This document shows positions 27,142-55,650 of a DNA stretch of 64,000 bases, one piece after another (position 1 is the stretch's first letter; every line of letters starts with the position of its first letter). The position numbers were made by a program, and so were the translations under genes. Under the pieces are notes generated by a model. It did no database searches and was not told where the DNA came from. It worked only from the letters and a program-made list of their open reading frames with translations. Source of the DNA: Comamonadaceae bacterium (GTDB lineage Bacteria; Pseudomonadota; Gammaproteobacteria; Burkholderiales; Burkholderiaceae_C); contig CANJPU010000013.1 in assembly GCA_947476285.1 (NCBI GenBank), positions 1-64,000 of the forward strand, read 5' to 3'.

Positions 27142-27229
27142 GACCTGCACTTTAGCCAATGCGCGCGGCTGGCGGGTGCGATGTGCGAAATTCCCACGAC
27201 GCAGGGTGAAGCTTGTGGCCGGTCGTGGT

Positions 27230-27270
27230 CTGTACGTATGTACAGCCCGCCCGCTCAACGGGACTACAAT
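27230..27270 (+). promoter_or_regulatory. parE upstream region: palindrome and -10 box
   Basis: CTGTAC-GTAT-GTACAG at 27230-27245 is an inverted repeat with 6-bp arms, and TACAAT at 27265-27270 is a plausible -10 box 11 bp before the parE start. The palindrome lies where an operator for parE or the divergent MFS gene could be. Confidence 0.45.
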
Positions 27271-27281
27271 GCGCAGCTCTT

Positions 27282-29249: not shown

Positions 29250-29257
29250 ACAAAACC

Positions 29258-30669: not shown

Positions 30670-30723
30670 CATGCCCACGAACATGCGTTGTGCTTCAAGG
30701 GTCAGACGATTGGAGGAAGCCAA

Positions 30724-31866: not shown

Positions 31867-31923
31867 GTTCGCGGCTTTGATATTCTTTTTTCTCCTTTTT
31901 GATTTTCGATTGACGACAAGTTC

Positions 31924-34257
31924 ATGGAGCAAGTGCTGATTTCCCTGGATGCCGGTGATGGCGGCGACAACAACGAACTGGACCTAGCCTCCTATGCCCA
32001 GCGTGCCTATCTCGAATACGCGCTCAGCGTGGTCAAGGGCCGCGCACTTCCTGATGTGTGTGATGGCCAAAAGCCGGTGCAGCGGCGCATTCTCTACTCG
32101 ATGTCGCGCATGGGGCTGGGCTTTACCGGTGCGGGTGGCGCCCGGCCGGTCAAGAGCGCGCGCGTGGTGGGTGATGTGCTGGGCCGTTTTCATCCGCATG
32201 GCGACCAGGCCGCGTATGACGCACTGGTTCGCATGGCCCAGGATTTTTCGCAGCGCTACCCCCTGATCGACGGCCAGGGCAACTTCGGTAGCCGAGATGG
32301 CGACGGCGCAGCGGCCATGCGCTACACCGAGGCGCGCTTGTCGCGCATCACCAATTTGCTGCTTGACGAAATCGACGAAGGCACGGTCGAGTTCATCCCC
32401 AACTACGACGGCAGTACCCAGGAACCTGCGCAACTGCCTGCGCGTCTTCCCTTTGCCTTGCTCAATGGCGCAAGCGGCATCGCGGTCGGGTTGGCCACCG
32501 AGATTCCCAGCCATAACCTGGGCGAAGTGGCGCAAGCCTGCGTCGCACTGATTCGCAATCCCAAGCTCGATGAAGACGAACTGGCCGTTCTGCTGCCCGG
32601 CCCCGACTATCCCGGCGGAGGCCAGATCATCAGCCCGCCCGCTGACATCGCGCAGGCCTACCGCACCGGGCGTGGCTCACTCAAGGTGCGTGCCTGCTGG
32701 AAGATCGAAGAGCTCGCGCGCGGCCAGTGGCAACTGGTGGTGCATGAATTACCGCCCGGCGTCAGCACGCAGAAAGTGCTGGAGGAAATCGAAGAGATCA
32801 CCAATCCCAAGGTCAAGGCCGGCAAGAAGGCTCTGGGCCAGGAGCAGGTGCAACTCAAGCAGACCATGCTGGCCGTGCTCGATGCGGTGCGCGACGAATC
32901 CAGCAAGGATGCAGCGGTGCGCATCGTCCTGGAGCCCAAGACCAGCCGCATCAGCCAAGCTGAATTTGTTGGCACGCTGCTGGCGCACACCAGCCTGGAG
33001 AGCTCCTCGCCGATCAACCTCACCAGTATCGGGCTGGATGGCAGGCCAGTGCAGAAGTCGCTGCGCCAGATGATGCTGGAGTGGATCGAGTTTCGCCAGG
33101 CCACCATCGAGCGGCGCTCGCGCCACCGGCTGGGCAAGGTCACCGATCGCATTCACATCCTCGAAGGCCGGCAACTCGTCTTGCTCAACATCGACGAGGT
33201 CATCGCCATCATCCGCCGCAGCGATGAGCCCAAGGCGGCGCTGATCGCGCGATTCGCGCTCAGCGACCGCCAGGCCGAGGACATTCTTGAAATTCGGCTG
33301 CGCCAGCTTGCCAGGCTTGAGGCAATCAAGATCGAGCAGGAGCTCAAGGAATTGCGCCTGGACCAAACCCGGCTTGAGGAGATTTTGGCTAGCCCCACCG
33401 CACTGCGCCGCCTGATGATCAAAGAGATCGAGCAGGACGCCAAACAATTCGCCGATGCTCGTCGCACCCTGATTCAGGCCGACAAGAAAGCGATTGTCGA
33501 AATCAAGGTGATAGATGAGCCAGTCACTGTGGTGGTGTCCGACAAAGCTTGGGTGCGCGCGCGCCAGGGTCATGGCCATGAAGCCGCGAGCTTTGCATTC
33601 AAGGCGGGTGACGGGCTCTACGGCACCTTCGAGTGCCGCACCGTTGACACCTTGCTGGCGTTTGGCAGCAATGGCAGGGTCTATTCAGTGCCGGTTTCCG
33701 CGTTGCCCGGTGCGCGAGGCGACGGCCAGCCCCTGACCACTTTGATAGAGCTGGAGGCCGGCACCCAGTTGCAGCACTACTTCGCCGGTGCACCCGGCGC
33801 ATGGTTGCTGCTGAGCAGCTCTGGTGGCTACGGCTTTCTGGCGACCGTGGAGAACATGACTTCGCGCTTGAAGGCTGGCAAGTCCTTCATCAGCTGCGGC
33901 GAGGGCGAAACTGTGTGCCGCCCATCGCCGGCCAACGTGGCGCCGCAAGCACCCGCGACCCACGTGGCGTGTGTGTCAGAGGGCGGTCGCATTCTCACGT
34001 TCGAGATCACCGAACTCAAGCCCATGGCCAATGGCGGCCGCGGCCTGATGCTGATTGACCTGGACGCCAAGGACACCCTGGCCGGTGCTGCGGCTTACAC
34101 CCGCAGCGTGAAGATCTCGGGCATCGGGCGCGGCGGCAAGGAACGCGAGGAGACCCTGGAGATTCGTTCGCTCAACAACGCCCGCGCTGTGCGTGGCCGC
34201 AAGGGGCGCGCATCAGATTTTGGCTTCAAGCCGACCTCGGTTGTGCGGGTGGAGTAG
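31924..34257 (+). CDS. parC: DNA topoisomerase IV subunit A
   Basis: The 777-residue decatenase subunit has [16 protein letters not shown], the active-site Tyr in [11 protein letters not shown] and a C-terminal beta-pinwheel region. In the quinolone-resistance region the sequence is [12 protein letters not shown], with Gln95 where E. coli ParC has Ser80 and Asp99 where it has Glu84. It pairs with ParE encoded upstream to unlink daughter chromosomes. Confidence 0.97.
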
Positions 34258-34778: not shown

Positions 34779-35693
34779 TCAGGAGATTGTAGAAGCCGGC
34801 GTCACCGTGACTGCCACTCGCAGTTTGTGCTTGGCCCCACCATGGATCACGCCGCGCATCGGCGAGACGTCCGAGTAGTCGCGTCCGGTGGCAAGTGTCA
34901 CATAGTCCTGGCCCGGCGTGCGGTTGTTGGTGGGGTCCAGGTCTGCCCACTCGCCCAAGCTGCCGGGCGGGCCGGGCAGATACAGCGACACCCACGCGTG
35001 CGATGCATCGCTGCCCACCAGTCGCGGCCGGCCAGGCGGCGGCGAGGTGAGAAGGTAGCCGCTGACGTAGCGTGCCGGCAAGCCCAGGCTGCGCAGGCAA
35101 GCCAGCATGATGTGGGCAAAGTCCTGGCACACGCCTTTGCGCATTTGCAGCACCTGCAGGGCCGGTGTGCTGACGTCGGTGGCCTCAGGCTCGTACTCGA
35201 AGTCGCTGTGAATGCGCTCCATCAGTTCGCGTGCTGCTTCGATCAGGGGCCTTTGAGTTGCGAAGCTGGGTTGTGCGTAGGCCAGAAAGTTTTCATGGCG
35301 CGGCACATAGGGCGAGGCGAAGGCAAACTCGGCTGCCGGGTCATAGGCAGCCTGCCGGTGGTAGCGCATGCGCTCGCAGGCGTCTTCCCAGGGCATGTCG
35401 TTGCTGATGGGGCTGGGCTGCGTGGTGAGCACAGTACTGAGGGCTACCACCTCCAGCGTGTCGTGCTCGGAGTTGAGGCTGAAGAAAGCGCGGGTGTTGC
35501 CGTAGACGTCGAAGGTCTCGCTGCGTTGTGCGGGGGTCGGTTCAATGCGCAGTTCGTGGCTGAGCAACTGCTGGCGCACTGTGTGCGATGGCTTCAAGTG
35601 CGCCATGTGCTGCGCGGTTTTGACGGGCGGTGAATACGCGTAGTGCGTTTCATGCACGACGCGCAGCAATAGGGGGGGCGTGGCCGTGCTCAA
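34779..35693 (-). CDS. Transglutaminase-like cysteine protease-fold protein
   Basis: The 304-residue protein has an N-terminal beta domain (LLLRVVHETHYAYSPPVKTA) and a transglutaminase core with Cys189 (KGVCQDFAHIML), His (SDASHAWVSLYL) and Asp (WADLDPTNN). No signal peptide is seen, so it is probably cytoplasmic. It starts 2 bp after the stop of the ATP-grasp/alpha-E fusion gene on the same strand, so the two form an operon. This family combination has been predicted to act on peptide-like bonds. Confidence 0.9.
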   Translation of the reverse strand: MSTATPPLLLRVVHETHYAYSPPVKTAQHMAHLKPSHTVRQQLLSHELRIEPTPAQRSETFDVYGNTRAFFSLNSEHDTLEVVALSTVLTTQPSPISNDMPWEDACERMRYHRQAAYDPAAEFAFASPYVPRHENFLAYAQPSFATQRPLIEAARELMERIHSDFEYEPEATDVSTPALQVLQMRKGVCQDFAHIMLACLRSLGLPARYVSGYLLTSPPPGRPRLVGSDASHAWVSLYLPGPPGSLGEWADLDPTNNRTPGQDYVTLATGRDYSDVSPMRGVIHGGAKHKLRVAVTVTPASTIS

Positions 35694-35695
35694 AG

Positions 35696-38293
35696 TTATG
35701 CCCCAACGCTGTAGCGAGCGTCACCCGAGTGCGTGAAATAGCGCGAGCCCAGATTGTCCGAAAGCTTGTAAGCAGCATCGGTGCAGGTTTGGAGTAGTTC
35801 CAACAATCGGGCGTAGCGGCCCTGGGCATCGCGCTCACACAGCGCTGACAGCGACCACTTCTTTGGATCGGGCACGGTCAAGGCGATGTCGGGCATTTCA
35901 CCCGGGGCGCTGCCGGCTAGCTTCGCAAGGCGCCCGCGCAGGGTTTGCGCCACCCAGGCCAGCGAGCGTGGGTTGTCGCGGTCCAGCAGCAGCAGGTCAA
36001 GCAGGGCGGGAATGTCGTGGCGCTGTTGGTAGCGCGCATGGAAGGTGATGGTGCTGTCGAACAAGGCAACCACGGCTTCGAAGCCGCCCTGGTCCAGCCA
36101 AGCATCTGTCTCGACTGCCCAGCCCAGCGCAGACGCAAGAAACCCCAGGCGTTCCAGATGCCGCCCGCTGGACAAGAGACGCCAGCCATCGTCGCGTGTC
36201 ATGCGATCGGTCTGGGCGCCGGTCATCGCGGCGGTGTAGCCCGAGAGCGTTTCGAGTGCGCGTAAAGCCTCCACCGAAGAGTAGTCGCCGCCCTCGGTGA
36301 AAGCCTTGCAATCGCGCGTGAACCCTTGCTCTGCTCGAACGATCACGTTCCATTGCTCGGTAGACAGGCGTTCGCGCACTGCGCCGGCCGCGCCGCGCAA
36401 GGCGGCCAGGTTGAAGCCGACGCTGGTAGCGCCGGTGGCATCGCCCAAGGCTGCAATCAGTGAGCGCTCAAACACCCGGCGTGCCTGTGTCGCGGCGGGC
36501 ACGGCAGGCACGATGAGGGCATTGTCCACCGCCATTTCGCTCAGCCAGGCCAGCAGTGGCTGGGATGATTGGTCTTCGCCGTTTAAGTTCTCGAGGGTGA
36601 GACGGGCCAGGCGTGCGCTGTTCTCGGTGCGCTCGGTGTAGCGACCCAGCCAGAACAGGTTTTCGCCGGCACGGCTGGTGACACTGCGGCTGCGGTGAGC
36701 AACGCTCGCTGCTGGCTGGTCGTGATGCAGCAGCGTGGTGGTGTCAACTTCGCCTTCGGTGAGCACCCAGGTGTCGGCGCTGCTGCCGCCGCGCTGCATG
36801 GAGGCGATGTCCAGGGTCGTGCCGGCGATGCGGGTGAGGCCACCCGGCAGCACTCGCCAGGACTGAGGGCCGTCTGACACCGCGAACACGCGCAGCATCA
36901 TGGAGCGCGGGATGATTCGCTCGCCAGCGAGGGTGTGTTTCCAGGTAGGCATCTGCGACAGAGGCAGATAAGCTTGTATGGTGTGTAGATCGGCTTCACG
37001 CACGATGCGACCTGTCCATTCGTCCAACTCGCGGCGCGAGAGTGATTTGCCGAGCACGGCCCCGGCGGTTGCGGTGCCGTAAGTGGGCTTGATGACACTG
37101 CTGGCCAACTGCGGCAGCACCGACTGCATCGCAGCGCGCTCACCGCACCACCAGGTGTCCAGTGAAGGCAGGAGCAGTTCTTCATCCAGCAGGTGGCGCG
37201 ACAGCGCGGGCAGAAAGCCCAGCATCGCGGTCGATTCGAGAAAGGCCGAGCCCGGTGCATTGGCCACGAGCACATGGCCTGCGCGTATGGCCTGCAACAG
37301 GCCGGGCACGCCCAGGTGCGAGTCCGCGCGCAGCTCCAGCGGATCGAGGAACTCATCGTCCAGGCGTTTTAGCATGCCGTGTACCGGCTCAAGCCCCTGA
37401 AGCGTCTTTAGGTAGAGGCGCTGGTCGCGTACCGTGAGGTCGCTGCCCTCGACCAGGTCCAGACCCAGGTAGCGCGCGAGGAACGCGTGCTCGAAATAGG
37501 TTTCGTTGTAGGGCCCGGGTGTGAGCAGCACAATGCGCGGCTCGCTGTCGGCCGGACACATGGCACGCAAGCCGTCGGCCAGGGCGCGATAAGTGGCGGC
37601 CAGGCGTTGGACCTTGAGTTCGCGAAACGCCTCGGGGAACATGCGCGAGATGATGAGGCGGTTTTCCAGCAGATAGCCCAGGCCCGATGGTGCCTGAGTG
37701 CGCTGGGAGACCACCTGCCATGAGCCCGCTGGGTTGCGCGCCAGATCGAATGCTGCAATGTGCAAGTGGGTGCCGCCAGCGGGTATGACCCCGTGCATGG
37801 TGCGCAGATAGCCAGGGTGGCCTTGCACCAGCGCGGGCGGCAGCATGTTGGCGGCCAGTAGCTGCTGCGGGCCGTAGACGTCGGCCATGATTCGGTCCAG
37901 CAGCTTGACCCGCTGCAAGACGCCGGTCTCGATCTGCTGCCAGCTCTGCGGTGAAATGATCAGCGGGAATAAATCGAGCGACCAGGGGCGCTGCGGGCCG
38001 TTGGCATCGGCATAGACGTTGTAAGTGACACCGTTGTCGCGCACCTGCCGCTGCAGATTTTGCGTGCGCCGGTTCAGATCGTCGAAGCCTTCGCGGCCGA
38101 GCTTGTCGAAGAATTGCGACCAGGGGGCAGCAGGCAAGGCGGGCACCGGCGCACCCGGCACAGCTGCTGCGCCGCGCAATTCGTCATAGTGTCCGGTGGC
38201 GCAGGGCGGCGCCAGAGATGCGGCAAATGCCGCGGGCGTCTCCTGGGCGTGCGCACCGAAGAGTGATCCAGCCGGGTCGTTGTGATTATCCAC
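35696..38293 (-). CDS. Circularly permuted ATP-grasp protein fused to an alpha-E domain
   Basis: The 865-residue protein holds a COG2308-type ATP-grasp region (about 70-500; SLDLFPLIISPQSWQQIETG, VLLTPGPYNETYFEHAFLAR) and, from about 535, a COG2307-type alpha-E domain (RAGENLFWLGRYTERTENSA). The same domains occur as separate proteins at 45360-47818. ATP-grasp enzymes join a carboxylate to an amine using ATP; alpha-E partners are of unknown role. The substrate is unknown. It is the first gene of a two-gene operon with the transglutaminase. Confidence 0.88.
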   Translation of the reverse strand: MDNHNDPAGSLFGAHAQETPAAFAASLAPPCATGHYDELRGAAAVPGAPVPALPAAPWSQFFDKLGREGFDDLNRRTQNLQRQVRDNGVTYNVYADANGPQRPWSLDLFPLIISPQSWQQIETGVLQRVKLLDRIMADVYGPQQLLAANMLPPALVQGHPGYLRTMHGVIPAGGTHLHIAAFDLARNPAGSWQVVSQRTQAPSGLGYLLENRLIISRMFPEAFRELKVQRLAATYRALADGLRAMCPADSEPRIVLLTPGPYNETYFEHAFLARYLGLDLVEGSDLTVRDQRLYLKTLQGLEPVHGMLKRLDDEFLDPLELRADSHLGVPGLLQAIRAGHVLVANAPGSAFLESTAMLGFLPALSRHLLDEELLLPSLDTWWCGERAAMQSVLPQLASSVIKPTYGTATAGAVLGKSLSRRELDEWTGRIVREADLHTIQAYLPLSQMPTWKHTLAGERIIPRSMMLRVFAVSDGPQSWRVLPGGLTRIAGTTLDIASMQRGGSSADTWVLTEGEVDTTTLLHHDQPAASVAHRSRSVTSRAGENLFWLGRYTERTENSARLARLTLENLNGEDQSSQPLLAWLSEMAVDNALIVPAVPAATQARRVFERSLIAALGDATGATSVGFNLAALRGAAGAVRERLSTEQWNVIVRAEQGFTRDCKAFTEGGDYSSVEALRALETLSGYTAAMTGAQTDRMTRDDGWRLLSSGRHLERLGFLASALGWAVETDAWLDQGGFEAVVALFDSTITFHARYQQRHDIPALLDLLLLDRDNPRSLAWVAQTLRGRLAKLAGSAPGEMPDIALTVPDPKKWSLSALCERDAQGRYARLLELLQTCTDAAYKLSDNLGSRYFTHSGDARYSVGA

Positions 38294-38450
38294 GTCGGGG
38301 CTATTGTCACACCCTCAAGGTCGCGCCATCTTTGCGGCTTCGATCAAATCGAGGGCTTGTTGCATGTGGACGACGTTGCAGCACTATCAAGGTGCATGCA
38401 TCGCGCGGGGAAACTGCTCGATCGGGCCGTGCTCTGAAGCACAATCGGGC

Positions 38451-39221
38451 ATGGCTTCGAATCCTCTTTCAGCGCCCTCATCGGCTCCACCCATCGATCC
38501 GCTCTTGCTGACTTCAGCGCGCGTCGTGACTTTCGACGGGCAGCGGCTGCTCACCAATGCCAGCGGCTTCTTCTTTGAACGTGGGGACAGATTGTTCCTG
38601 GTGACAAGCCGGCATGTGATGATCGACGAGCCAAGCAGGCATTTCCCCGATCGCATCGAGATCGAGATGCACATTGATTCGCGCAACATGACGCAGTCCA
38701 CCGGATTTTCAATGCCCCTGTACCGCGACGGCAAAAGCGTGTGGCATCAGGGCAGCGACACTGGCGGCGAGATCGACGTGGCGGTGATCGAGATTGAACG
38801 CAATGCCTTGCCTGCCACTTCTGTGTACCGCGCCTTCACGCCCAAGCATCTGTGCAACGCAAGCGATTCGGTGCCGCTTGGCGCATCGCTGCTTGTGGCG
38901 GGCTTCCCCTTGGGCTTTCATGATGCGCTGCATCACCTGCCCGTGGTGCGCCACGCAGTCAACGCTTCCCCCTTCGGCTTGCGTTTCCAGGGCAAGGGTT
39001 ATTTCCTGACAGATGCCAGAACCCATCGCGGCACCAGCGGCGCGTCCGTGGTGATGCGAGCGTCTGCGCGTGCCGACGGGCTGGGCGAATTGCCTTGGCT
39101 GTTGCTTGGCGTGCATTCATCGCGCATGGATGTGGGCACCCGCGATTTGAAATTGGATGAAGCCCTTGGACTCAATTGCGCCTGGTACGCTGACATTCTG
39201 CTGACCTTGACAAGGGATTGA
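38451..39221 (+). CDS. Trypsin-like serine protease, apparently cytoplasmic
   Basis: The 256-residue protein has a trypsin-fold triad: His55 (VTSRHVMID), Asp109 (GGEIDVAVIEI) and Ser196 (HRGTSGASV). No signal peptide or PDZ domain is seen, so it differs from DegP. The start was chosen at the ATG after ACAATCGGGC, which looks like a -10/leader. It sits between the ATP-grasp/alpha-E fusion and the DUF2126 gene, facing the latter. A role in that cluster is inferred only from position. Confidence 0.78.
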   Translation: MASNPLSAPSSAPPIDPLLLTSARVVTFDGQRLLTNASGFFFERGDRLFLVTSRHVMIDEPSRHFPDRIEIEMHIDSRNMTQSTGFSMPLYRDGKSVWHQGSDTGGEIDVAVIEIERNALPATSVYRAFTPKHLCNASDSVPLGASLLVAGFPLGFHDALHHLPVVRHAVNASPFGLRFQGKGYFLTDARTHRGTSGASVVMRASARADGLGELPWLLLGVHSSRMDVGTRDLKLDEALGLNCAWYADILLTLTRD

Positions 39222-39317
39222 GGAGGGCGGGGTTCATCTGCCTGTTTGACGGGCATGCCCCATCCGCACCGCATGAATACTGGTCCTGTGATAACTTTCC
39301 AGCGTTAACCAACAGAC

Positions 39318-39340
39318 TTGTCCACAGGCGCAGTGGATAA
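39318..39340. promoter_or_regulatory. Pair of DnaA-box-like sites in a convergent gap
   Basis: TTGTCCACA (39318-39326, plus) and TTATCCACT (39332-39340, minus) each match the DnaA box TTATNCACA with one difference, in opposite orientations 5 bp apart. They may be chance or a DnaA-binding cluster. Confidence 0.3.
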
Positions 39341-39357
39341 GCGGCCACCGGCCAATG

Positions 39358-42300
39358 TCAGCTTTGGCGAAGATCCAGCGTGAAAGGAAATTCTTTGCTA
39401 CCCGCCACATTGACGCTCGCCTGTGGTATGTGCACGGCGCCCGGCGTGTGGCCCATGCGGAAGAATCGCGCCAGTCGGCGGCTCTCGGCCTCATAGGAGT
39501 TGACCGGAAAGCCTTCGTAGTTGCGCCCGCCCGGATGGGCCACATGGTATTGGCAGCCGCCCAGTGAGCGCTTCATCCAGGTGTCGACGATGTCGAACAC
39601 CAGTGGCACATGCACGCCGATGGTGGGGTGCAGGGCAGATGGCGGCGCCCATGCCTTGTAGCGCACACCGGCCACAAACTCGCCCGCAGTGCCTGCGCTT
39701 TGCAGGGGCAGCGCGCGGCCATTGACGGTGATCACATGGCGGCTCTCATTGAGCCCGGTGACGCGCACCTCGATGCGCTCCAGCGATGAGTCAACATAGC
39801 GCACCGTGCCGCCCGCAGAGCCTTCCTCGCCCATCACATGCCAGGGTTCCAGCGCATTGCGCAGCGTGAGCTCGATGCCCATCGAATCGACTTGGCCGAC
39901 CAAGGGAAAGCGAAACTCGAAATGCGGCGCGAACCAGGCTTCATCGAATGCATAGCCGGCCTGGCGCATCTCTGTCAGCACGTCATTGAAATCCATCCGC
40001 ACAAAGCTGGGCAGGAGGAAGCGATCATGCAACTGTGTGCCCCAGCGCGTCACATTGGCGCGATAAGGCTGTTTCCAGAAGCGAGCCACCAGCGCACGAA
40101 TCAGCAACTGCTGCGCGATGCTCATGCGCGCATGCGGCGGCATCTCGAAGGCGCGCAACTCCAGCAGGCCCAGGCGGCCGGTGCTGCTGTCGGGCGAGTA
40201 GAGTTTGTCGATGCAAAATTCACTGCGGTGTGTGTTGCCGGTGACGTCAACCAGCACATTGCGCAGCGTGCGGTCCACAATCCACGGCGGCATTTCTTCG
40301 CCATGCTTCTCGCGACTGTGCTCGATCTCGCGCATTGCAATTTCCAGCTCGTACAACTGGTCATTGCGCGCCTCATCGACGCGCGGCGCCTGGCTGGTGG
40401 GGCCGATGAACATGCCCGAGAAAAGATAACTCAGCGATGGATGGTTGTGCCAGTACAGCAGCAGGCTGGCCAAGAGTTCGGGCTTGCGCAGGAAGGGTGA
40501 GTCAGTGGGTGTTGCGCCGCCCAGCACAAAGTGATTGCCCCCGCCGGTGCCGGTGTGGCGCCCGTCTGTCATGAATTTTTCCGCCGACAAGCGCGTCTCA
40601 AATGCGGCCTGATAGAGAAACTCGGTGTGCTGCACCAGTTCGCCCCAGTTGTGGGCCGGATGAATATTGACCTCGATCACGCCGGGATCGGGTGTGACCT
40701 GCAGGAGCTTCAGCCGGGTATCGCGCGGCGGTGGATAGCCTTCGAGAACGATTTTCACGCCCAGCGATTGGGCCGTTGCTTCGATCGCAGCCAGCAAATC
40801 GAGATAGTCTTCCACCCGGGCCAAGGGCGGCATGAAGACATAGAGCAGGCTGCTCTTGGCGCCGGTCTGTTCCGCCTTGGGCCCGCTTGCGCGGCGCGGA
40901 TCGCGCGCCTCCACACACAGCGCGGTGCGTGAGAGCCCCTTGGCTGATTCACGCAGGCGCGGCGCAACCTGCGCTGCTTCAGGCGTGACGGGTGCGCTGA
41001 CGCCAGGGCTGAGCGCATAGCGCGCCTGAAGGGTCTCTGGCTCGGGCAGGCTGTCGCGCGGTGCAGTCGGGTCGCGCTCGATCAGGTAGGGCAGGTCGGT
41101 GGGCTTGGCCCAGGGCAGGGAATCGAGCGGCAGGCGCAAGCCCATGGGCGAGTCGCCGGGGGTTAGCAGGAGGCGATCTTCGCGTAGAAACCAGGGTTGG
41201 GTTCGCCATGCGGGGCCGTCGGGCTCGTCCTCATCGCGCGGCTGCAGCGGCAGCACGTAGCCAACCTCGGCTTCAAGCTTTTGCTCGAACACGCGGCGCA
41301 GGCGAACGCGCTCCATCTCGTCGTCCAGGTGCGAATCGAAAGCGTCCACATTGACCGGCAGACGGCGCTGGCGCCACTGGTAGTAAAAGCTGTCCTCATA
41401 GCCGGGCCGGATGAATTGGTCAGTCAGGCCCAGGCGCTTGGCGAGTGTGCAGATGAATCGCTTCGCGTCATCGCTGGTGTAGTGGGCGCTCTCGCGCTCA
41501 TCGGCGAACAAGGCAGGGTTGACCCAGGCCGGTTGGCCGTCGGTGCGCCAGTAGATTGACAAGGCCCAGCGCGGCAACTGCTCGCCCGGATACCACTTGC
41601 CTTGGCCGAAATGAAGAAAGCCGCCGCGGCCGTATTCGTCGCGCAGCTTGTGCACCAGCTCGGTGGCGTATGCGCGCTTGGTCGGGCCCAGGGCGTCGGT
41701 GTTCCACTCAGCCGCGTCGCGATCTTGCGTGGCGACGAAGGTGGGCTCACCGCCCATGGTGAGGCGCACATCGCCGGCCTTCAATTCGCGGTCCACAGCT
41801 TCGCCCAGTGCCAGCACCTGTGCCCACTGCGCTTCGGTGTAGGGCTTGGTCACGCGCGGTGATTCATGGATGCGGGTGACCTGCATCTGGTGGTCAAACT
41901 CGACCTTGGCATCGTCCACCACGCCTTCGATCGGCGCAGCGCCCGAGGGCTGCGGCGTGCAGGCCAGTGGCACGTGTCCCTCGCCAGCCAGCAGGCCGGA
42001 GGTCGGGTCCAGGCCCACCCATCCGGCGCCGGGCAGATACACCTCGCACCAGGCATGCAGATCGGTGAAATCGACCGTGGTGCCGCTGGGGCCGTCCAGG
42101 GCTTTCACGTCGGGGGTGAGCTGGATCAGGTAGCCCGAGACAAAGCGCGCGGCCAGACCGCAATGGCGCAGAAGCTGCACCAGCAGCCAGCCGGAATCGC
42201 GGCAGGAGCCGCTGGCTTGCTCTAACGTTTGCTCGGGCGTCTGCACGCCGGGCTCCATGCGGATGAGGTACTTGATGTCATGCTGCAGCTTCTGGTTGAT

Positions 42301-42741
42301 GCCCACCAGAAAGTCGATGGTGGCCACAGGCGTGCGATCAATCGTGTCCAGGTAGGCCTTGAGGCGTGGCGTGAGCGGCAGGGCAGCAAGGTAGGGCGCC
42401 AGTTCCTGAGCCACCAAGGCTTCGTACTTGAACGGAAATTTCTCGGCGCTGGGTTCAAGAAAAAAATCGAATGGGTTGTACACCGCCATCTCGACCACCA
42501 GGTCGACCGTGACCTTGAACTCAGTGGTCTTGTCCGGAAACACCAGTCGGGCCTGGTAGTTGGCAAACGGGTCTTGCTGCCAGTTGATGAAATGCTTGGC
42601 CGGCTCGATCTTGAGCGAGTAGGACACCACGTGGCTGCGCGAATGAGGCGCCGGACGCAGCCGGATGACCTGAGGCCCCAACTGCACAGGACGGTCATAC
42701 TTGTAATGGGTGACGTGATGGAGTGCGGCATGTATCGACAT
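39358..42741 (-). CDS. Transglutaminase-DUF2126 fusion protein
   Basis: The 1127-residue protein begins with a transglutaminase module (about 1-290): Cys180 in GSCRDSGWLLVQLL, His in TDLHAWCEVYLPG and Asp in GLDPTSG. The DUF2126 (COG4196) region follows, starting near 320 with KAGDVRLTMGGEPTFVATQD and running to the end with many conserved acidic and His residues (GGNHFVLGGATPTDSPFLRK). DUF2126 is related to glutamine-synthetase-like folds in published predictions; its reaction is unknown. Large size and tight conservation suggest an enzyme. Confidence 0.88.
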   Translation of the reverse strand: MSIHAALHHVTHYKYDRPVQLGPQVIRLRPAPHSRSHVVSYSLKIEPAKHFINWQQDPFANYQARLVFPDKTTEFKVTVDLVVEMAVYNPFDFFLEPSAEKFPFKYEALVAQELAPYLAALPLTPRLKAYLDTIDRTPVATIDFLVGINQKLQHDIKYLIRMEPGVQTPEQTLEQASGSCRDSGWLLVQLLRHCGLAARFVSGYLIQLTPDVKALDGPSGTTVDFTDLHAWCEVYLPGAGWVGLDPTSGLLAGEGHVPLACTPQPSGAAPIEGVVDDAKVEFDHQMQVTRIHESPRVTKPYTEAQWAQVLALGEAVDRELKAGDVRLTMGGEPTFVATQDRDAAEWNTDALGPTKRAYATELVHKLRDEYGRGGFLHFGQGKWYPGEQLPRWALSIYWRTDGQPAWVNPALFADERESAHYTSDDAKRFICTLAKRLGLTDQFIRPGYEDSFYYQWRQRRLPVNVDAFDSHLDDEMERVRLRRVFEQKLEAEVGYVLPLQPRDEDEPDGPAWRTQPWFLREDRLLLTPGDSPMGLRLPLDSLPWAKPTDLPYLIERDPTAPRDSLPEPETLQARYALSPGVSAPVTPEAAQVAPRLRESAKGLSRTALCVEARDPRRASGPKAEQTGAKSSLLYVFMPPLARVEDYLDLLAAIEATAQSLGVKIVLEGYPPPRDTRLKLLQVTPDPGVIEVNIHPAHNWGELVQHTEFLYQAAFETRLSAEKFMTDGRHTGTGGGNHFVLGGATPTDSPFLRKPELLASLLLYWHNHPSLSYLFSGMFIGPTSQAPRVDEARNDQLYELEIAMREIEHSREKHGEEMPPWIVDRTLRNVLVDVTGNTHRSEFCIDKLYSPDSSTGRLGLLELRAFEMPPHARMSIAQQLLIRALVARFWKQPYRANVTRWGTQLHDRFLLPSFVRMDFNDVLTEMRQAGYAFDEAWFAPHFEFRFPLVGQVDSMGIELTLRNALEPWHVMGEEGSAGGTVRYVDSSLERIEVRVTGLNESRHVITVNGRALPLQSAGTAGEFVAGVRYKAWAPPSALHPTIGVHVPLVFDIVDTWMKRSLGGCQYHVAHPGGRNYEGFPVNSYEAESRRLARFFRMGHTPGAVHIPQASVNVAGSKEFPFTLDLRQS

Positions 42742-42808
42742 GGGCGGATACTAGCAATTACGGGGCCTGATCCTGACAAATCGCCAACTTGAGCCCAGTG
42801 CGGGGCCA

Positions 42809-45301
42809 ATGGCCGGGTCTGCTTGGTTATGCTGCGCGGCTCGAACGGCGCAGATGCATCACAACAAAAAATGGACTGGGGGAGGGTGGCTGGTGCCCGT
42901 GCTCTTGGGCACTGTGCTGGGCATCGCCCTGCAATTGCAGCAGCCTCGATTGTGGTCACTGGGTCATTACCTTTGGATTGTTGGGGCTGGCCTTGGCTTG
43001 CTGGCCGTGCGCTGGCGCTGCTGGCGCCTTGCCGCTTTGGCGCTGATTGCCGCCGCACTGCTGGGCTTTGGCCTGACGGGGCTGCGCGCAGCGCAGTTCG
43101 CTGAGCAGGCACTTGCAGCGCAGCTCGAAGGCCGTGACATCCGCATCACTGGCATGGTCAGCGCGATGCCTCAGCGCAACGAAGCGGGGATTCGTTTTCG
43201 ATTCAAGGTGGACTCAGCCGAAATGGACGGGCAGGCCTTGCACCTGCTGCGGCATGTCTATCTGGGCTGGTGGGGCGCATCCGGTGCGCAAGACGCAGCG
43301 CCGAATGTGCGCCCCGGAGAACGCTGGAGCTTCAGCGTGCGCTTGCGCGCACCGCATGGCAACAGCAATCCGCATGGTTTCGACTACGAGCTCTGGCTGT
43401 GGGAGCAAGGTATTCAAGCCACAGGCTATGTGCGCGCCGGGCCGCGTGATCTACCGCCCCAACGCTTGCAGGACACCTGGCAGCATCCGGTGGAGCAGGC
43501 ACGCCATGCGGTGCGCGCGCGCATTCTCGCGTATGTCGAGAACGCCAAGTCAGCGGGGCTGCTGGCGGCTTTGGTCGTGGGCGACCAGAACGCCATCGAC
43601 AAGACCGATTGGGACATCTTCAGGGCCACCGGTGTCGCGCACTTGATGAGTATCTCGGGCTTGCATGTGACCATGTTCGCCTGGGCCGCCGCTGCGCTGG
43701 TGGGCTGGCTGTGGCGGCGCAGCGCGCGCCTGTGCATGGCATGCCCTACGCAGCACGCTGCCCTGATCGGTGGCATTGCATTGGCCGCAGGCTATGCGCT
43801 CTTCAGTGGCTGGGGTGTGCCTTCGCAGCGGACCATCTGGATGCTGGCCACCGTGGGGCTCTTGCGACTGTGGGGGCGGCGCTGGCCATGGCCGCCGGTG
43901 TGGCTGCTGGCCTGCGCGGTGGTCAGTTGCATTGATCCCTGGGCTTTACTGCAGGCGGGCTTCTGGCTGAGCTTTGTGGCGGTGGGCGTGCTCTTTGCCA
44001 CCGATCCGGGTGGCGGTACCCATGCAGCCGAGGCGGACGACGGGGTCGGCGCGCGCGTGCCCCGCTTCATCAAGGCGGCACGCGCGATGATGCATGAGCA
44101 GTGGGTGGTGACGGTGGCCCTGACGCCTTTGTCGCTGTTGCTCTTTGGCCAGGTGTCTGTGATTGGACTGGTCGCCAATGCGATCGCGATTCCCTGGGTG
44201 ACGCTGGTGGTCACGCCACTGGCCATGGCCGGTGTCCTGCTCTCGCCGCTGTGGAGTGTGGCCTCATGGGCATTGCAGGCTTTGGGCATGTGCCTGCAAT
44301 GGCTGGCGGCGCTGCCCTGGTCTAGCGTGTCGGTGCCGGCCGCTCCCTTGTGGGCGGGGGTGCTGGGTGTCATCGGCGGGCTTCTGGTGGCGCTGCGCCT
44401 GCCCTGGCATGCGCGGCTGCTGGGCCTGCCGCTGCTGCTGCCGGTCTTGTTCTGGCAAGTGCAACGGCCGGCGCCGGGCGAGTTTGAGTTGATCGCTGCC
44501 GACATCGGCCAGGGCAACGCAGTGATCGTGCGCACGGCGCGTCACACGGTTTTGTATGACAGCGGCCCGCGCTATGGCACCGACAGTGATGCTGGCAGCC
44601 GCGTTCTGGTTCCACTGCTGCGCGCTCTGGATGAGCGCCTTGACATGCTGATGCTGAGCCACCGCGACATCGACCACACCGGCGGCGCGGCTGCAGTGCT
44701 GGCGATGCAGCCCACCGCCGCACTGACGGGCTCGCTGGAGGATGCTCATGAGCTGCGGGCCATGGGCACCTCCACCCGCTGTCAGGCTGGCCAGAGCTGG
44801 AGTTGGGACGGCGTGCGCTTTGAGGTGCTGCACCCGCAGGCTGCAGACTACGACCAGAAGGCCAGGTCCAACGCGATGAGCTGCGTGCTGCGTATCTCCA
44901 CCGCCACACGGTCGGCGCTGCTGGCGGGCGACATTGAGCAGCCTCAGGAAGCGAGGCTGCTGGCGCAGGGCGTGCCACTTGCAGCCGATGTGCTGCTGGT
45001 ACCGCATCACGGAAGCAAGACCTCATCGAGCGAAGCGTTCCTGCGCGCGGTGCACCCCACAATCGCGCTGGTGCAAGCGGGCTACCGCAACCGATTCGGC
45101 CATCCGGCCGCGCCGGTGGTGGAGCGCTACCGCATGCTGGGCGTTCGGATGATTGACACGCCGCGCTGCGGGGCCGCAACATGGAACTCCGCACGTCCTG
45201 AGCAGGTGGATTGCCATCGCCAGTCGGCCCGGCGGTATTGGCGCCACCGTGCCGATGCGGCCGACATCACCGATGCCGGTGACCAAAAAGAGCTGCCGTG
45301 A
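42809..45301 (+). CDS. comEC: ComEC/Rec2 DNA uptake channel protein
   Basis: The 830-residue inner-membrane protein has an N-terminal soluble region, the competence domain with HLMSISGLHVTMFAWAAAAL, about ten membrane helices, and a C-terminal MBL-like domain (AADIGQGNAVIVRTARHTVL, LSHRDIDHTGGAAA, VPHHGSKTSSSE). It carries single-stranded DNA into the cytoplasm during transformation. A second start (MHHNKKW) lies 15 codons downstream; no strong ribosome site decides between them. Confidence 0.93.
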   Translation: MAGSAWLCCAARTAQMHHNKKWTGGGWLVPVLLGTVLGIALQLQQPRLWSLGHYLWIVGAGLGLLAVRWRCWRLAALALIAAALLGFGLTGLRAAQFAEQALAAQLEGRDIRITGMVSAMPQRNEAGIRFRFKVDSAEMDGQALHLLRHVYLGWWGASGAQDAAPNVRPGERWSFSVRLRAPHGNSNPHGFDYELWLWEQGIQATGYVRAGPRDLPPQRLQDTWQHPVEQARHAVRARILAYVENAKSAGLLAALVVGDQNAIDKTDWDIFRATGVAHLMSISGLHVTMFAWAAAALVGWLWRRSARLCMACPTQHAALIGGIALAAGYALFSGWGVPSQRTIWMLATVGLLRLWGRRWPWPPVWLLACAVVSCIDPWALLQAGFWLSFVAVGVLFATDPGGGTHAAEADDGVGARVPRFIKAARAMMHEQWVVTVALTPLSLLLFGQVSVIGLVANAIAIPWVTLVVTPLAMAGVLLSPLWSVASWALQALGMCLQWLAALPWSSVSVPAAPLWAGVLGVIGGLLVALRLPWHARLLGLPLLLPVLFWQVQRPAPGEFELIAADIGQGNAVIVRTARHTVLYDSGPRYGTDSDAGSRVLVPLLRALDERLDMLMLSHRDIDHTGGAAAVLAMQPTAALTGSLEDAHELRAMGTSTRCQAGQSWSWDGVRFEVLHPQAADYDQKARSNAMSCVLRISTATRSALLAGDIEQPQEARLLAQGVPLAADVLLVPHHGSKTSSSEAFLRAVHPTIALVQAGYRNRFGHPAAPVVERYRMLGVRMIDTPRCGAATWNSARPEQVDCHRQSARRYWRHRADAADITDAGDQKELP

Positions 45302-45310
45302 GTTTGATTA

Positions 45311-45338
45311 TTGAACAAGGCCCGGAACTTGCTATCCT
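45311..45338 (+). promoter_or_regulatory. Promoter of the unfused ATP-grasp/alpha-E operon
   Basis: TTGAAC (45311-45316) and TATCCT (45333-45338) are separated by 16 bp and lie 21 bp upstream of the ATP-grasp ATG, with GGAGA as the ribosome binding site. comEC ends at 45301, so the operon appears to have its own promoter. Confidence 0.5.
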
Positions 45339-45359
45339 GTGGCGTGGAGATTAGCCTTT

Positions 45360-46856
45360 ATGCATAAATTCGACGAGATGTGCAGCACCTTGCCTGGCGA
45401 TGGACAGCTTCAGTTCCAGAGCCAGTCGCAAGGTGGGCGCAGCCAGCTTCAAATCCAGGGAGTGCGCGACCACTACAAGGGGTACACGCAGTGGCTGGCG
45501 CGCCAGACGCAGGAGACCATGCGCGCGCGTCGCGAAGAAGCCGAGATGATCTTTCGCCGTGTGGGCATCACCTTTGCTGTCTATGGCGCCAAGGACGAAG
45601 AAGGCGCGGGCACTGAGCGTTTGATTCCGTTCGACCTGATTCCCCGCATCATTCCGGCCAATGAATGGGCCAGCATGGAAAAAGGCCTGGTGCAGCGTGT
45701 CACCGCGCTCAATCGCTTCTTGCACGACGTCTACCATGAGCAGGACATCATCAAGGCCGGCATCATCCCGGCCGAGCAAATACTGAACAACGAGCAGTTC
45801 CGCAAGGAAATGATGGGCGTGTATGTGCCGCACCGCATCTACTCTCACATCGCCGGCGTGGACATCGTGCGCGCGCCCAATGCCAAGGGCGAAGGCGAGT
45901 ACTACGTGCTCGAAGACAACCTGCGCGTGCCCAGCGGCGTGAGCTATATGCTGGAAGACCGCAAGATGATGATGCGGCTCTTTCCCGACCTGTTCAGTTC
46001 GCACCGGGTGGCGCCCGTCATGCACTACCCCGATTTGCTGCTGGAGACACTGCGCGCATCGGCCCAACCTGGCGCGCCCGACCCCACGGTGGTGGTGCTC
46101 ACCCCTGGCATGTACAACAGCGCCTACTTCGAGCACGCCTTCCTGGCCCAGCAGATGGGGGTGGAACTGGTCGAAGGACAGGACCTGTTCGTCAAAGATC
46201 GCTATGTCTACATGCGCACCACGCGTGGCCCCAAGCGGGTCGATGTGATCTACCGCCGCGTGGATGACGACTTCCTCGATCCATCGGTGTTCCGCCCCAC
46301 TTCCACCCTGGGCTGTGAAGGCCTGGTCGATGCCTACCGCGCGGGCAACGTGAGCATCTGCAATGCAATCGGCACCGGTGTGGCCGATGACAAATCCATC
46401 TACCCCTACGTGCCCAAGATGATCGAGTTCTACCTGGGCGAGAAACCGATCCTGAACAACGTGCCCACCTACATGTGCCGCAACAAGGACGACCTGGGCT
46501 ACACGCTGGCAAACCTGAAAGACCTGGTGGTCAAGGAAGTGCACGGTGCTGGCGGCTACGGCATGCTGGTGGGGCCGGCCGCCACGCAAGCGGAGATCGA
46601 AGACTTTCGCAAGGCCATCGTGGCCAACCCGGCGGGCTACATTGCGCAGCCCACGCTGTCGCTATCGACTTGCCCAACCTTCGTTGAAAGCGGCATTGCG
46701 CCGCGCCACATTGACTTGCGGCCCTTCGTGCTGTCTGGCAAAGAGGTGCAGATGGTGCCCGGTGGCCTGACACGCGTGGCCCTGAAGGAAGGCTCGCTGG
46801 TGGTCAACTCGTCCCAGGGTGGTGGCACCAAGGACACCTGGATACTGGAGGTTTGA
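45360..46856 (+). CDS. Circularly permuted ATP-grasp protein (stand-alone)
   Basis: The 498-residue COG2308-type protein shares with the fusion protein the motifs RIIPANEWASMEKGLVQRVT, VLTPGMYNSAYFEHAFLAQQ and HGAGGYGML. It probably ligates an amino compound to a carboxylate using ATP; substrates are unknown. The start has GGAGA nine bases upstream. The alpha-E gene begins 2 bp after its stop. Confidence 0.9.
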   Translation: MHKFDEMCSTLPGDGQLQFQSQSQGGRSQLQIQGVRDHYKGYTQWLARQTQETMRARREEAEMIFRRVGITFAVYGAKDEEGAGTERLIPFDLIPRIIPANEWASMEKGLVQRVTALNRFLHDVYHEQDIIKAGIIPAEQILNNEQFRKEMMGVYVPHRIYSHIAGVDIVRAPNAKGEGEYYVLEDNLRVPSGVSYMLEDRKMMMRLFPDLFSSHRVAPVMHYPDLLLETLRASAQPGAPDPTVVVLTPGMYNSAYFEHAFLAQQMGVELVEGQDLFVKDRYVYMRTTRGPKRVDVIYRRVDDDFLDPSVFRPTSTLGCEGLVDAYRAGNVSICNAIGTGVADDKSIYPYVPKMIEFYLGEKPILNNVPTYMCRNKDDLGYTLANLKDLVVKEVHGAGGYGMLVGPAATQAEIEDFRKAIVANPAGYIAQPTLSLSTCPTFVESGIAPRHIDLRPFVLSGKEVQMVPGGLTRVALKEGSLVVNSSQGGGTKDTWILEV

Positions 46857-46858
46857 AG

Positions 46859-47818
46859 ATGCTTTCACGAACAGCCGATCACCTCTTCTGGATGTCCCGC
46901 TACACCGAGCGGGCCGAGAACACCGCGCGCATGCTCGATGTGAATTACCAGACATCCCTGTTGCCACAATCGGCCGCAGTGGCCCAGGTGGGCTGGCAGG
47001 GCTTGCTCTCCATCAGCGAACTAATGCCCGCCTACACCGCCAAGCATGGCGAGGTGATTCCCCAGCAGGTGATGGAGTTCATGGTCAAGGATGAGAGCAA
47101 CCCCTCTTCCATCGTCTCTTGCCTGAAGGCTGCTCGCGAAAATGCACGTGCTGTGCGCGGCTCGCTCACCACTGAAGCCTGGGAGACTCAGAACCAGACT
47201 TGGCTGGAAGTCAATCGCATGCTCAAAGCCGGCGAGTTCGAGCGCGACCCGGCTCATTTCTTTGAGTGGGTGAAGTTCCGCTCGCACCTCTCGCGCGGCG
47301 TTACCGTGGGCACCATGCTGATGGACGAGGCGCTGTACTTCATGCGCCTGGGCACTTTCCTGGAGCGGGCGGACAACACCGCGCGACTGGTGGATGTGAA
47401 ATTCCACGCGGTGCAAAGCGATTTCTTCGGCGCGGCCAACGAGAAAGACCAGGAGTACGACTTCTACCACTGGAGCGCGATTTTGCGCAGCGTTTCGGGC
47501 TTTGAGATCTATCGCAAGGTTTACCGTGATGTGATCAAGCCAGAGCGGGTGGCCGATCTGCTTATTTTGCGTGCCGACATGCCGCGCTCCTTGCATGCCA
47601 GCCTCAATGAAGTGGTGAGCAATCTGGCCATGGTGGCCAACGACCAGTCATCCGAAACCCAGCGGCGCGCCGGCAAGCTGCGGGCAGACCTGCAGTACGG
47701 CGCGATTGACGAGATTTTGGCGACTGGCTTGCACGCCTTTCTCACCCAGTTTCTTGATCGAATCAACGAATTGGGCGTGCGCATCAGCCGCGACTTCCTC
47801 ATACCGGCGCAGGCTTGA
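46859..47818 (+). CDS. Alpha-E domain protein (stand-alone)
   Basis: The 319-residue all-helical COG2307-type protein begins MLSRTADHLFWMSRYTERAE, the family hallmark. GGAGG is placed seven bases upstream of the ATG, so that start is preferred to a TTG two codons earlier. It partners with the ATP-grasp protein encoded just before. Its role is unknown; a scaffold or second catalytic subunit is inferred from the constant association. Confidence 0.9.
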   Translation: MLSRTADHLFWMSRYTERAENTARMLDVNYQTSLLPQSAAVAQVGWQGLLSISELMPAYTAKHGEVIPQQVMEFMVKDESNPSSIVSCLKAARENARAVRGSLTTEAWETQNQTWLEVNRMLKAGEFERDPAHFFEWVKFRSHLSRGVTVGTMLMDEALYFMRLGTFLERADNTARLVDVKFHAVQSDFFGAANEKDQEYDFYHWSAILRSVSGFEIYRKVYRDVIKPERVADLLILRADMPRSLHASLNEVVSNLAMVANDQSSETQRRAGKLRADLQYGAIDEILATGLHAFLTQFLDRINELGVRISRDFLIPAQA

Positions 47819-49530
47819 GCACACCCGATTCCGCCTTGAACCGGGGCCGCTTGCTGATGGAGCAGGGCCGCAAGCAGGAGGCCGTGCAGGCTTTTGGCCA
47901 GGCCTTGCGCCAGCAACCCCACAGCGTGGAGCCGCGCCTTGCCTTGTCAGAGGTTTGCCTGCGCATAGGCGATGGCTGGGCTGCGGCTGCGTGGCTGAGC
48001 GATGCGTGCAGGGTTGCGCCGCAGCAGGCGCAGTTGTGGCTGGATCTGGCCAAGTTGTTGGTGGCCCTCAAGCGCGAATCGGAGCTTGCACCGTTGTTGG
48101 GCGCGGCCACAGCTATTCACCCGCACAATGCACCGTTGTTGAACATGCAGGCCGAACTGATGCTGCATGCCCGGCAGTATGACCAGGCGCTTGCGCCGTA
48201 TCGCGCGCTGCGCGTCTTGCAGCCGCAAGACCGAGTCACGCTTCTTCACTACGCGTTTTGTCTGGAGCAGACCGGCTCACTGGAACATGCGGCGGCAGTC
48301 TTGCGCGAGGCAATTGCCCATCATCCCGGCTTTATGGAAGCGCATGTCAATCTGGCCGGGCTCCTGTGGCGGCTGGGCGAGTTCGATGCCACGCTGATTC
48401 ATGCGCAAAAAGCAGTTGAACTTGCGCCCACGCATGCCCATGCGGTGCGGGTGCTGGGCATGGCCTGGCTTCATCTGAACCAGCTTGAACAGGCGCAAGC
48501 ACACTTGCGTCAGGCACTTGAATTGCAGCCCGGATTTTCCCTGGCCGAAGTCGATCTGGCTTTCGCGCTGCTGTCGGGTGGCCAGATGCATGAGGGCTGG
48601 CAGATGTACGGCAGGCGCTGGCGCGATGTGGAACGCATGCACAGGCCCAGCTTCTTCAGGGCCGAGCTTGAATGGAAGGGCCCCGCCATGCAGCCGCTGG
48701 CGGGCAAACGTATCGTCGTCTATTCGGAGCAAGGCCTGGGCGATCAAATTCAGTTCGCGCGCTACCTGCCCTTGCTGCAGCAACAGGGTGCCACGGTTTC
48801 AGTGCTGGTTCATGCCGAGTTGGTGCCACTGGTGCAAGCCAGCATGCCCGGCGTCGACTGCCTCACCGCTGCGCGCAGCCTGGAGATAGACCATCATGTG
48901 GCGCTGCTCGATCTGCCCATGCATCTCGATACCGGGCTGGGCAACATCCCCGCGCAAGTGCCTTACCTGAAAGCACCCGATGACAGGATGGCGCAGTGGC
49001 GCGACAAGCTCGCACCTTGGAGCGACAAACCGCGCGTGGGCTTGGCGTGGGCCGGGGCGGCCGCGCATGTGAACAACGCCAACCGTTCCATGTGGCTCAG
49101 TCAGTTGGCGCCTCTCACAGCGCTTGACACGCTGCAGTGCTTTAGCCTGCAAAAGGGTGACGCCGGGAAGTGGAGCGATGTGGTGGTGGATGGCGCCAAA
49201 CTGGTAGACCTGACTGGGCACTGGCAGGACTTTAGCGACAGCGCCGCCATGCTCTCGCAGTTGGACCTGATCATCACCGTGGACACCGCCATCGCCCATC
49301 TTGCGGGCGCGCTTGGCAAACCAGTGTGGGTGCTGCTGCCGCCCAACCCCGACTGGCGCTGGATGCAGGCCCGCGATGACTCGCCCTGGTACCCGACGAT
49401 GCGGCTGTTCAGGCGTGGGTTCAAAGAGAGCAGGGCGGCGCAGGTGGTGCGGGTGATGGAGTTGCTGCAGGGCCAGGGCGGATCAGTCTGGCAGGTATCG
49501 CGCGGTGGGCTACCATCTGCCTGTTCTTGA
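47815..49530 (+). CDS. TPR protein with glycosyltransferase-9-like domain
   Basis: The 571-residue protein has about six TPR repeats (about 10-270, units such as AVLREAIAHHPGFMEAHVNL). A C-terminal heptosyltransferase-like region follows (about 300-550; VYSEQGLGDQIQFARYLPLL, LDLIITVDTAIAHLAGALG). Similar TPR-GT proteins may glycosylate proteins or lipids. The TTG start overlaps the alpha-E stop, so translation is coupled. Placement at the end of the ATP-grasp/alpha-E operon, where an Anbu-type hydrolase or a transglutaminase is often found, is notable. Confidence 0.8.
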   Translation: MSTPDSALNRGRLLMEQGRKQEAVQAFGQALRQQPHSVEPRLALSEVCLRIGDGWAAAAWLSDACRVAPQQAQLWLDLAKLLVALKRESELAPLLGAATAIHPHNAPLLNMQAELMLHARQYDQALAPYRALRVLQPQDRVTLLHYAFCLEQTGSLEHAAAVLREAIAHHPGFMEAHVNLAGLLWRLGEFDATLIHAQKAVELAPTHAHAVRVLGMAWLHLNQLEQAQAHLRQALELQPGFSLAEVDLAFALLSGGQMHEGWQMYGRRWRDVERMHRPSFFRAELEWKGPAMQPLAGKRIVVYSEQGLGDQIQFARYLPLLQQQGATVSVLVHAELVPLVQASMPGVDCLTAARSLEIDHHVALLDLPMHLDTGLGNIPAQVPYLKAPDDRMAQWRDKLAPWSDKPRVGLAWAGAAAHVNNANRSMWLSQLAPLTALDTLQCFSLQKGDAGKWSDVVVDGAKLVDLTGHWQDFSDSAAMLSQLDLIITVDTAIAHLAGALGKPVWVLLPPNPDWRWMQARDDSPWYPTMRLFRRGFKESRAAQVVRVMELLQGQGGSVWQVSRGGLPSACS

Positions 49531-55606: not shown

Positions 55607-55650
55607 GAGGCAAGACGTTATCCGAAATCGCGTACCGATGAGCAAAGCAA

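Follow-up and report, generated by a model that had tools for sequence, protein, structure and literature searches.

What does a cluster of ATP-grasp, alpha-E, transglutaminase and DUF2126 genes make, and which of the genes lying among them belong to it? The question is raised by a 64,000-nucleotide stretch of DNA, hereafter the window, from a bacterium of the Comamonadaceae (assembly GCA_947476285.1, contig CANJPU010000013.1, positions 1 to 64,000), whose genome is a 4.9-Mb draft of 117 contigs and 94.9% completeness. A first reading of the window, here called the original prediction, had placed a likely uncharacterised peptide-ligation and processing system at positions 34779 to 49530, counted a protease and a tetratricopeptide repeat (TPR) glycosyltransferase among its parts and noted comEC inside it. 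We find in the window an ordinary copy of a widespread and still unexplained gene set, which probably builds and cuts amide-linked peptides under nitrogen shortage. What is new with respect to the original prediction is a conserved, apparent pseudo-ATP-grasp and probable nitrogen control. The parts of the set are common: among 274 genomes of the class, representing 222 genera, alpha-E is present in 79, the proteasome-like protein Anbu in 69 and DUF2126 in 50.

The core genes and their arrangement

Five genes of the window carry the domains in question and are given short names here. AG (45360..46856, plus strand) is a stand-alone ATP-grasp (CP_ATPgrasp_2, 552.9 bits) and AE (46853..47818, plus strand) a stand-alone alpha-E (333.7 bits). 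TGD (39358..42741, minus strand) joins a transglutaminase and DUF2126 (1334.6 bits) in one protein. AGE (35696..38293, minus strand, 865 aa) is an ATP-grasp fused to alpha-E (CP_ATPgrasp_2 and Alpha-E), and its regular partner TG1 (34779..35693, minus strand) is the second transglutaminase (Bact_transglu_N and Transglut_core). Every domain named in the original prediction scores above the Pfam cut-offs, and its tally of two CP ATP-grasp, two alpha-E, two transglutaminase and one DUF2126 domains is exact. The AG frame is listed from 45339, and the ATG at 45360, preceded by ggag, is the likelier start; the AG and AE frames (45339-46856 and 46853-47818) overlap at their ends, so that the CP ATP-grasp gene adjoins the alpha-E gene. 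A search of the genome recovered no Bact_transglu_N or alpha-E proteins beyond the two of each kind that lie in the window. The best-ranked named relative of TGD, at 83% identity, belongs to Caenimonas soli, whose locus is 91% identical to the window in AG, 94% in AE and 84% in AGE.

The association of these genes far exceeds chance. In Fisher tests, which ignore shared ancestry, all 50 genomes with DUF2126 also have alpha-E (1.5e-34), as do 66 of the 69 with Anbu (4.1e-46); in 42 of the 50, the contig with DUF2126 also carries an alpha-E no more than 12 kb away. An AGE-like fusion occurs in 22 genomes, 20 of them with DUF2126 (7.5e-15). Since only alpha-E fusions entered the list of AGE-like proteins, all of these genomes have alpha-E by construction; judging from the listed alpha-E places, 22/22 have another alpha-E in addition to the fused one. 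Presence follows a nested pattern in which AG and AE form the core, TGD is added next and the AGE-TG1 pair last.

Gene order was compared in 80 named loci, those ranking highest among at least 593 matches. TGD, AGE and TG1 are consecutive on one strand in 66 of them, from Burkholderiales to Pseudomonas and Marinobacter; the remaining 14 are mostly short contigs or a stretch without the genes. All five genes lie on the same strand in the order AG, AE, TGD, AGE, TG1 in 13 of the 80, including Ideonella, Aquabacterium, Thiomonas and Marinobacter. The block comEC-AG-AE is oppositely oriented in the window and in many Comamonadaceae, and in the window an opposite-strand gene separates AGE from TGD. 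TG1 sits directly downstream of AGE in 104 of the 105 loci with room for it. TGD is present in 97 of 102 AGE loci, a figure biased by the fetching of most of these loci through DUF2126; among 20 loci fetched through AGE, TG1 is found in 20 and TGD in 17. The original prediction expected its genes to co-occur, and for the core genes they do so in both genome content and order. Among 29 TGD sequences, no signature tracking the presence of AGE was found; on their tree the presence of AGE changes at least six times, a number as low or lower in 46 of 1000 shuffles.

Some DUF2126-type genes have an unusual form. Locus L158 (G163:C104) holds three consecutive copies, namely a full one, a diverged one (1029 bits) and a 718-aa frame that matches the DUF2126 part only, and frames of 713-716 aa covering mainly the second half of DUF2126 occur in genomes G043, G048, G154 and G184.

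Active-site residues of the core proteins

Are the two ATP-grasp proteins of the set equivalent? The ATP-grasp domains of the fetched loci were aligned to one profile, duplicates and matches spanning 380 profile positions or fewer being left out of the residue counts; the 66 AG and 142 AGE sequences that remained are unique and were separated by score, none falling between 450 and 550 bits. In AG, residues E192, D193, N194, D350, D351, K352, K399, D459 and N490 are kept in 66/66. In AGE, E192, N194, D350, D351 and D459 are kept in 0/142, K352 and N490 in one sequence of the 142, and the glycine loop is broken, with G405 retained in 12 and G408 in 16. In the window's AGE, S196-Q197-R198 replaces the E-D-N motif. 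The original prediction had named inactive ATP-grasp sites as evidence against itself: motif loss is what AGE displays throughout its 142 relatives, and AG is intact in all of its own. E192 and N194 may bind metal, by analogy with the E-Y-N motif of the GSP_synth family, which the E192-D193-N194 of AG resembles, and with the glutathione synthetases that appear among the structural matches, together with the ligand assignments for such enzymes. Profile comparison of AG and AGE with GSP_synth was not significant.

In the degenerate domain, R is found at position 194 in 131/142 AGE sequences and E at position 350 in 136/142, as conserved letters specific to AGE, and D175, R178, R461, R479 and D499 are kept in at least 134. 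K399 is kept in 80 and lost in 62, so nucleotide binding by AGE is possible. In a midpoint-rooted tree of thinned sequences (48 of AG, 92 of AGE), each of the two has a clade of its own. The ratio of nonsynonymous to synonymous substitution rates (dN/dS) of AGE ranges from 0.04 to 0.49 and is below 0.5 in 12/12 pairs; it is mostly slightly above that of TGD, and above that of AG, and its two highest values come from pairs in which other genes are also high. Purifying selection and the near-constant pairing with TG1 argue that AGE is maintained and is not decaying. On its residues, AGE appears to be a maintained pseudo-ATP-grasp, kept in a catalytically dead form.

The AlphaFold2 model of AGE (mean predicted local distance difference test score, pLDDT, 89.9; predicted template modelling score, pTM, 0.84) matches, in this order, 3n6x (E 1e-33), glutathione synthetases and glutathionylspermidine synthetase, the latter two being represented by the eukaryotic glutathione synthetase and the E. 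coli glutathionylspermidine synthetase. The closest fold to AGE is thus also a direct relative of AG, since AG matches 3n6x in the PDB with an E-value of 1.2e-212. This protein, Mfla_0391 of Methylobacillus flagellatus, is annotated as a putative glutathionylspermidine synthase; the name is a label, and we know of no function assigned to it. Glutathione and glutathionylspermidine synthetases differ from AG and AGE in their partners.

The AGE sequences include 17 families outside the class and inside the phylum, probably alphaproteobacteria. Outside the Proteobacteria, AGE was met at one locus only, in an Opitutae-labelled metagenome-assembled genome (L132) that is possibly misbinned, no wider search having been made. 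A pseudo-ATP-grasp that persists in at least two classes of the phylum alongside its complete sister would clearly exemplify a pseudoenzyme subunit in an uncharacterised pathway. Among the papers listed in searches of the open-access literature, none was seen to comment on AGE inactivity, most subscription papers being outside its scope; the inactivity may already be in print, not least in Iyer et al. 2009. At a further locus (L143, G258:C5, 3817-13202), AGE and TG1 are followed by a complete-motif AG that is also fused to alpha-E, and then by TGD; this fusion suggests that ATP-grasp and alpha-E domains cooperate.

The remaining core proteins keep their characteristic residues. The TG1 triad Cys189/His232/Asp253 is present in 132/132 at each position, and the transglutaminase triad of TGD in 124 (Cys), 124 (His) and 125 (Asp) of 125. 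Conserved acidic, His and Arg positions of DUF2126 are each kept in 123 or more of 125 sequences, H870 (116) being the exception, and in AE both ER motifs keep their Glu and Arg in 42 or 43 of 43. The DUF2126 model (pLDDT 76.5, pTM 0.82) scores lower than that of AGE. Its best 20 Foldseek matches are all, by title, ligases of the glutamine synthetase (GS) fold, such as GmaS, YbdK and GlnA; the best E-value is 0.036, none is significant alone, the alignments span about 300 of 866 residues and unrelated folds are mixed in at lower ranks. These matches are suggestive of DUF2126 being a putative GS-fold amidoligase.

Probable nitrogen control and proposed chemistry of the set

When would such a set be expressed? 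The -24/-12 elements of sigma-54 promoters were sought in the 300 bases upstream of each gene and 30 inside it, using the usual consensus and accepting sites with at least 10 of 12 positions. Gene starts were taken from the ends of tblastn matches, and related species do not count as independent; the loci L035 and L036, short or duplicated upstream regions and those containing N, and TG1 matches below 30% identity were left out. Sites precede AG in 29/47 cases (1.1 expected from dinucleotide shuffles) and TGD in 40/97 (2.2 expected), roughly 20-fold above the shuffles. They are rare at internal genes (7/228); gene by gene, the counts are 5/84 for AGE, 2/77 for TG1, 0/43 for AE, 0/24 for comEC and 0/10 for Anbu. 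NtrC-like palindromes are enriched at AG (7/47, 1.5 expected) and TGD (21/97, 4.4 expected). In the window, a sigma-54-type promoter-like site matching 10/12 consensus positions, AGGCCCGGAACTTGCT, lies upstream of AG (45318..45333, plus strand), in the gap that separates comEC from the ATG at 45360.

Passages of published work on relatives agree in part with these promoter-like sites. In wild-type Pseudomonas putida, PP_2686-2688 rise 11- to 15-fold under nitrogen limitation and were assigned to NtrB/NtrC (PMC7801951); with nitrate in place of ammonium, PP_2685 (the Anbu gene) and PP_2688 are up by log2 4.4 and 4.0 (PMC8050072), and PP2685-2687 are reported as up in another study (PMC3325844). 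In an ntrC mutant of Burkholderia cenocepacia, I35_5080 (DUF404/DUF407) changes by log2 -8.2, I35_5081 (DUF403) by -9.4 and the transglutaminase proteins I35_5082 and I35_5083 by -9.4 and -6.0, and I35_5080-5083 are named among the targets common to NtrC and sigma-54 (PMC5491218). Passages of a Caulobacter NtrC study mention only another transglutaminase homologue, hvyA (PMC10274813).

The kind of system is not new. Iyer et al. 2009 predicted a peptide-synthesis or tagging system (as cited in PMC5666114, PMC6376114 and PMC3597751), so that, going by these passages, the word 'uncharacterised' in the original prediction stands only as far as the open-access papers searched name no product, nitrogen-limitation control being in print as well. 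A Yersinia relative of the ATP-grasp releases phosphate from ATP (PMC6376114), Anbu has been considered as an intermediate in proteasome evolution (PMC5666114) and in marine metagenomes these domains correlate with urea genes (PMC3597751). Compared with the ATP-grasp/alpha-E/transglutaminase/Anbu operon of this literature, the genome of the window has the same AG, AE, transglutaminase and Anbu families; nitrogen-limitation control has been published for relatives. It differs in that Anbu lies on another contig behind mutS, that the operon's own transglutaminase was not found among the two Bact_transglu_N proteins of the 95%-complete draft, and that the window adds TGD and the AGE-TG1 pair, with its pseudo-ATP-grasp.

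Our preferred reading, which we place slightly short of an even chance, is that the set, induced by nitrogen starvation, forms a machine for making and splitting amide bonds, of isopeptide or gamma-glutamyl type, with one catalytic and one non-catalytic ATP-grasp. AG would activate a carboxylate as an acyl-phosphate and couple it to an amine, and DUF2126 may be a second ligase, of glutamine synthetase fold; the transglutaminases and Anbu would transfer or cleave the product. AGE would be a non-catalytic subunit whose retained fold and partial site bind substrate or product, and it may serve in the assembly or regulation of TGD and TG1. Under nitrogen shortage the set would be turned on by NtrC, probably together with sigma-54. 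In glutathione synthesis, a GS-fold ligase acts first and a glutathione-synthetase-type ATP-grasp follows; if the GS fold of DUF2126 is right, the set pairs the same two kinds of enzyme, and DUF2126 and AG would resemble that two-step logic. Peptide ligation and processing, as originally proposed, is still the best description and is also what was predicted in print: AG, the transglutaminases and DUF2126 keep catalytic-type residues, and one part of the proposal that fails concerns AGE, whose motifs are lost. A narrower version is rather doubtful. It makes the set a proteobacterial machine for conjugation and deconjugation in nitrogen stress, in which AG ligates, AGE, as an ancient pseudo-ATP-grasp, presents the substrate or regulates TGD together with TG1, and Anbu clears the product; were it true, the set would yield amide-linked peptides or protein marks of a new class under nitrogen control.

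Several observations weigh against the preferred reading. The TGD site of the window is weak (9/12) with nearly no leader left, the window's AGE has no sigma-54-like site (best 6/12) and NtrC-like palindromes are few among the upstream regions. In P. putida, PP_2686-2688 also rise 14- to 20-fold in an rpoN (sigma-54) mutant, in which the urt genes rise likewise (PMC7801951), and this counts against strict sigma-54 dependence there. The same passages report PP_2685 as hardly changed in the wild type (1.12), and Anbu expression was unchanged under several other conditions (PMC5666114). Yersinia Anbu was without peptidase activity and a complex of the operon proteins was not found (PMC6376114). 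No product, substrate or target of the set is named in the open-access papers searched. The GS fold of DUF2126 is weakly supported, with Foldseek E-values of 0.036 or worse and a non-significant profile comparison with GCS2. The binding or regulatory role of AGE is itself inferred, and with K399 kept in 80/142 nucleotide binding by the domain is possible.

A rival view is that AGE is re-tooled and not dead, its new conserved letters (DRTQAPSG, E350-S/N351) serving a different chemistry or nucleotide. The conservation of the replacement letters themselves, at R194 and E350, exceeds what decay would leave, and D175, R178, R461, R479 and D499 remain; yet the ExN motif has lost its E as well as its N, DDK has lost its lysine, the glycine loop is broken and the loss of K399 in 62/142 would be unusual for an ATP-using enzyme. 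We consider re-tooling unlikely. We judge about equally improbable a nitrogen store or salvage route, in which AG and DUF2126 would build up an amide polymer or gamma-glutamyl store from which the transglutaminases and Anbu free ammonia in starvation. The nitrogen-limitation control (PMC7801951, PMC8050072, PMC5491218), the sigma-54-like sites and the metagenomic correlation with urea genes (PMC3597751) would all suit such a store; nothing speaks directly against it, and no such storage compound is reported in the literature passages.

Tagging in the manner of ubiquitin or Pup, with ligases attaching a peptide tag and Anbu removing it or degrading the tagged protein, was already proposed in print (according to PMC6376114) and agrees with the proteasome-like nature of Anbu. 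The inactivity of Yersinia Anbu as a peptidase (PMC6376114) and its want of an AAA+ partner at the genomic level (PMC5666114) make this somewhat less probable than a nitrogen store. Finally, a chance neighbourhood of unrelated genes describes comEC, the protease and the glycosyltransferase, which are indeed lineage-specific neighbours; for the core genes it is refuted by the co-occurrence of DUF2126 with alpha-E and by the conserved order of TGD, AGE and TG1, and its overall probability is negligible. For work on the preferred amide-bond machine, the predicted working ATP-grasp, the AGE-TG1 partnership and the probable inducing condition guide the choice of protein, mutants and medium.

Neighbouring genes

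Which other genes of the locus belong to the set? Three that the original prediction listed within it, comEC, the trypsin-like protease and the TPR-glycosyltransferase, prove to be lineage-specific neighbours. ComEC (42809-45301, plus strand; Pfam) was rejected as a general member: among the 80 named loci it occurs in only 21, most of which belong to Comamonadaceae or further Burkholderiales, and at the threshold used no Pseudomonas locus has it. It is also found at the set in two genomes of the same family (L037, L183); a single lineage has retained it as a neighbour.

The trypsin-like protease (38304-39221, plus strand; Trypsin_2) more likely starts at the ATG at 38451, and in this form (38451-39221) its triad is intact by eye. 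Strong relatives occur in 11 of the 274 genomes, 10 of the 11 being DUF2126-positive, a comparison made by eye and without a statistic. It was rejected as a general part, since in 8 of these 10 it lies on another contig or at a distance, a separation that draft contigs do not always prove; among the 10 it is linked to the set only in the window and in genome G091, and it is also linked in Caenimonas (L056). Between families of the class sample the protein is 49-75% identical and stands in unrelated places (L056, L042, G107, G120 and others), so that a mobile or co-selected gene is possible, a reading confounded by shared ancestry. The proteolytic member that usually accompanies the set, Anbu, is unlinked here.

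The TPR-glycosyltransferase (47815-49530, plus strand; TPR repeats and a weak Glyco_transf_9 match) was likewise rejected as a general member: of the loci compared, only those of the window and Caenimonas have it behind alpha-E. Relatives of it adjoin Anbu in this genome (L035, G000:C25 1-5100), and none was seen beside Anbu in L180, L182 or L070. Anbu itself (G000:C25:4195-5019) lies directly behind mutS and, by reading of its sequence, has Thr1, Asp17 and Lys32. Two genomes of the family (L180, L182) have the same mutS-Anbu pair, as does a Limnohabitans genome (L070), where the pair adjoins TGD.

Beyond the set, a third transglutaminase-like gene with TgpA_N and Transglut_core domains (51611-53659, minus strand) represents a separate family outside positions 34779 to 49530, near a MoxR-type AAA ATPase gene (54686-55645). 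Just upstream of the set, at 27213-34257, genes for gyrase/topoisomerase IV-type B and A subunits flank a lytic transglycosylase gene.

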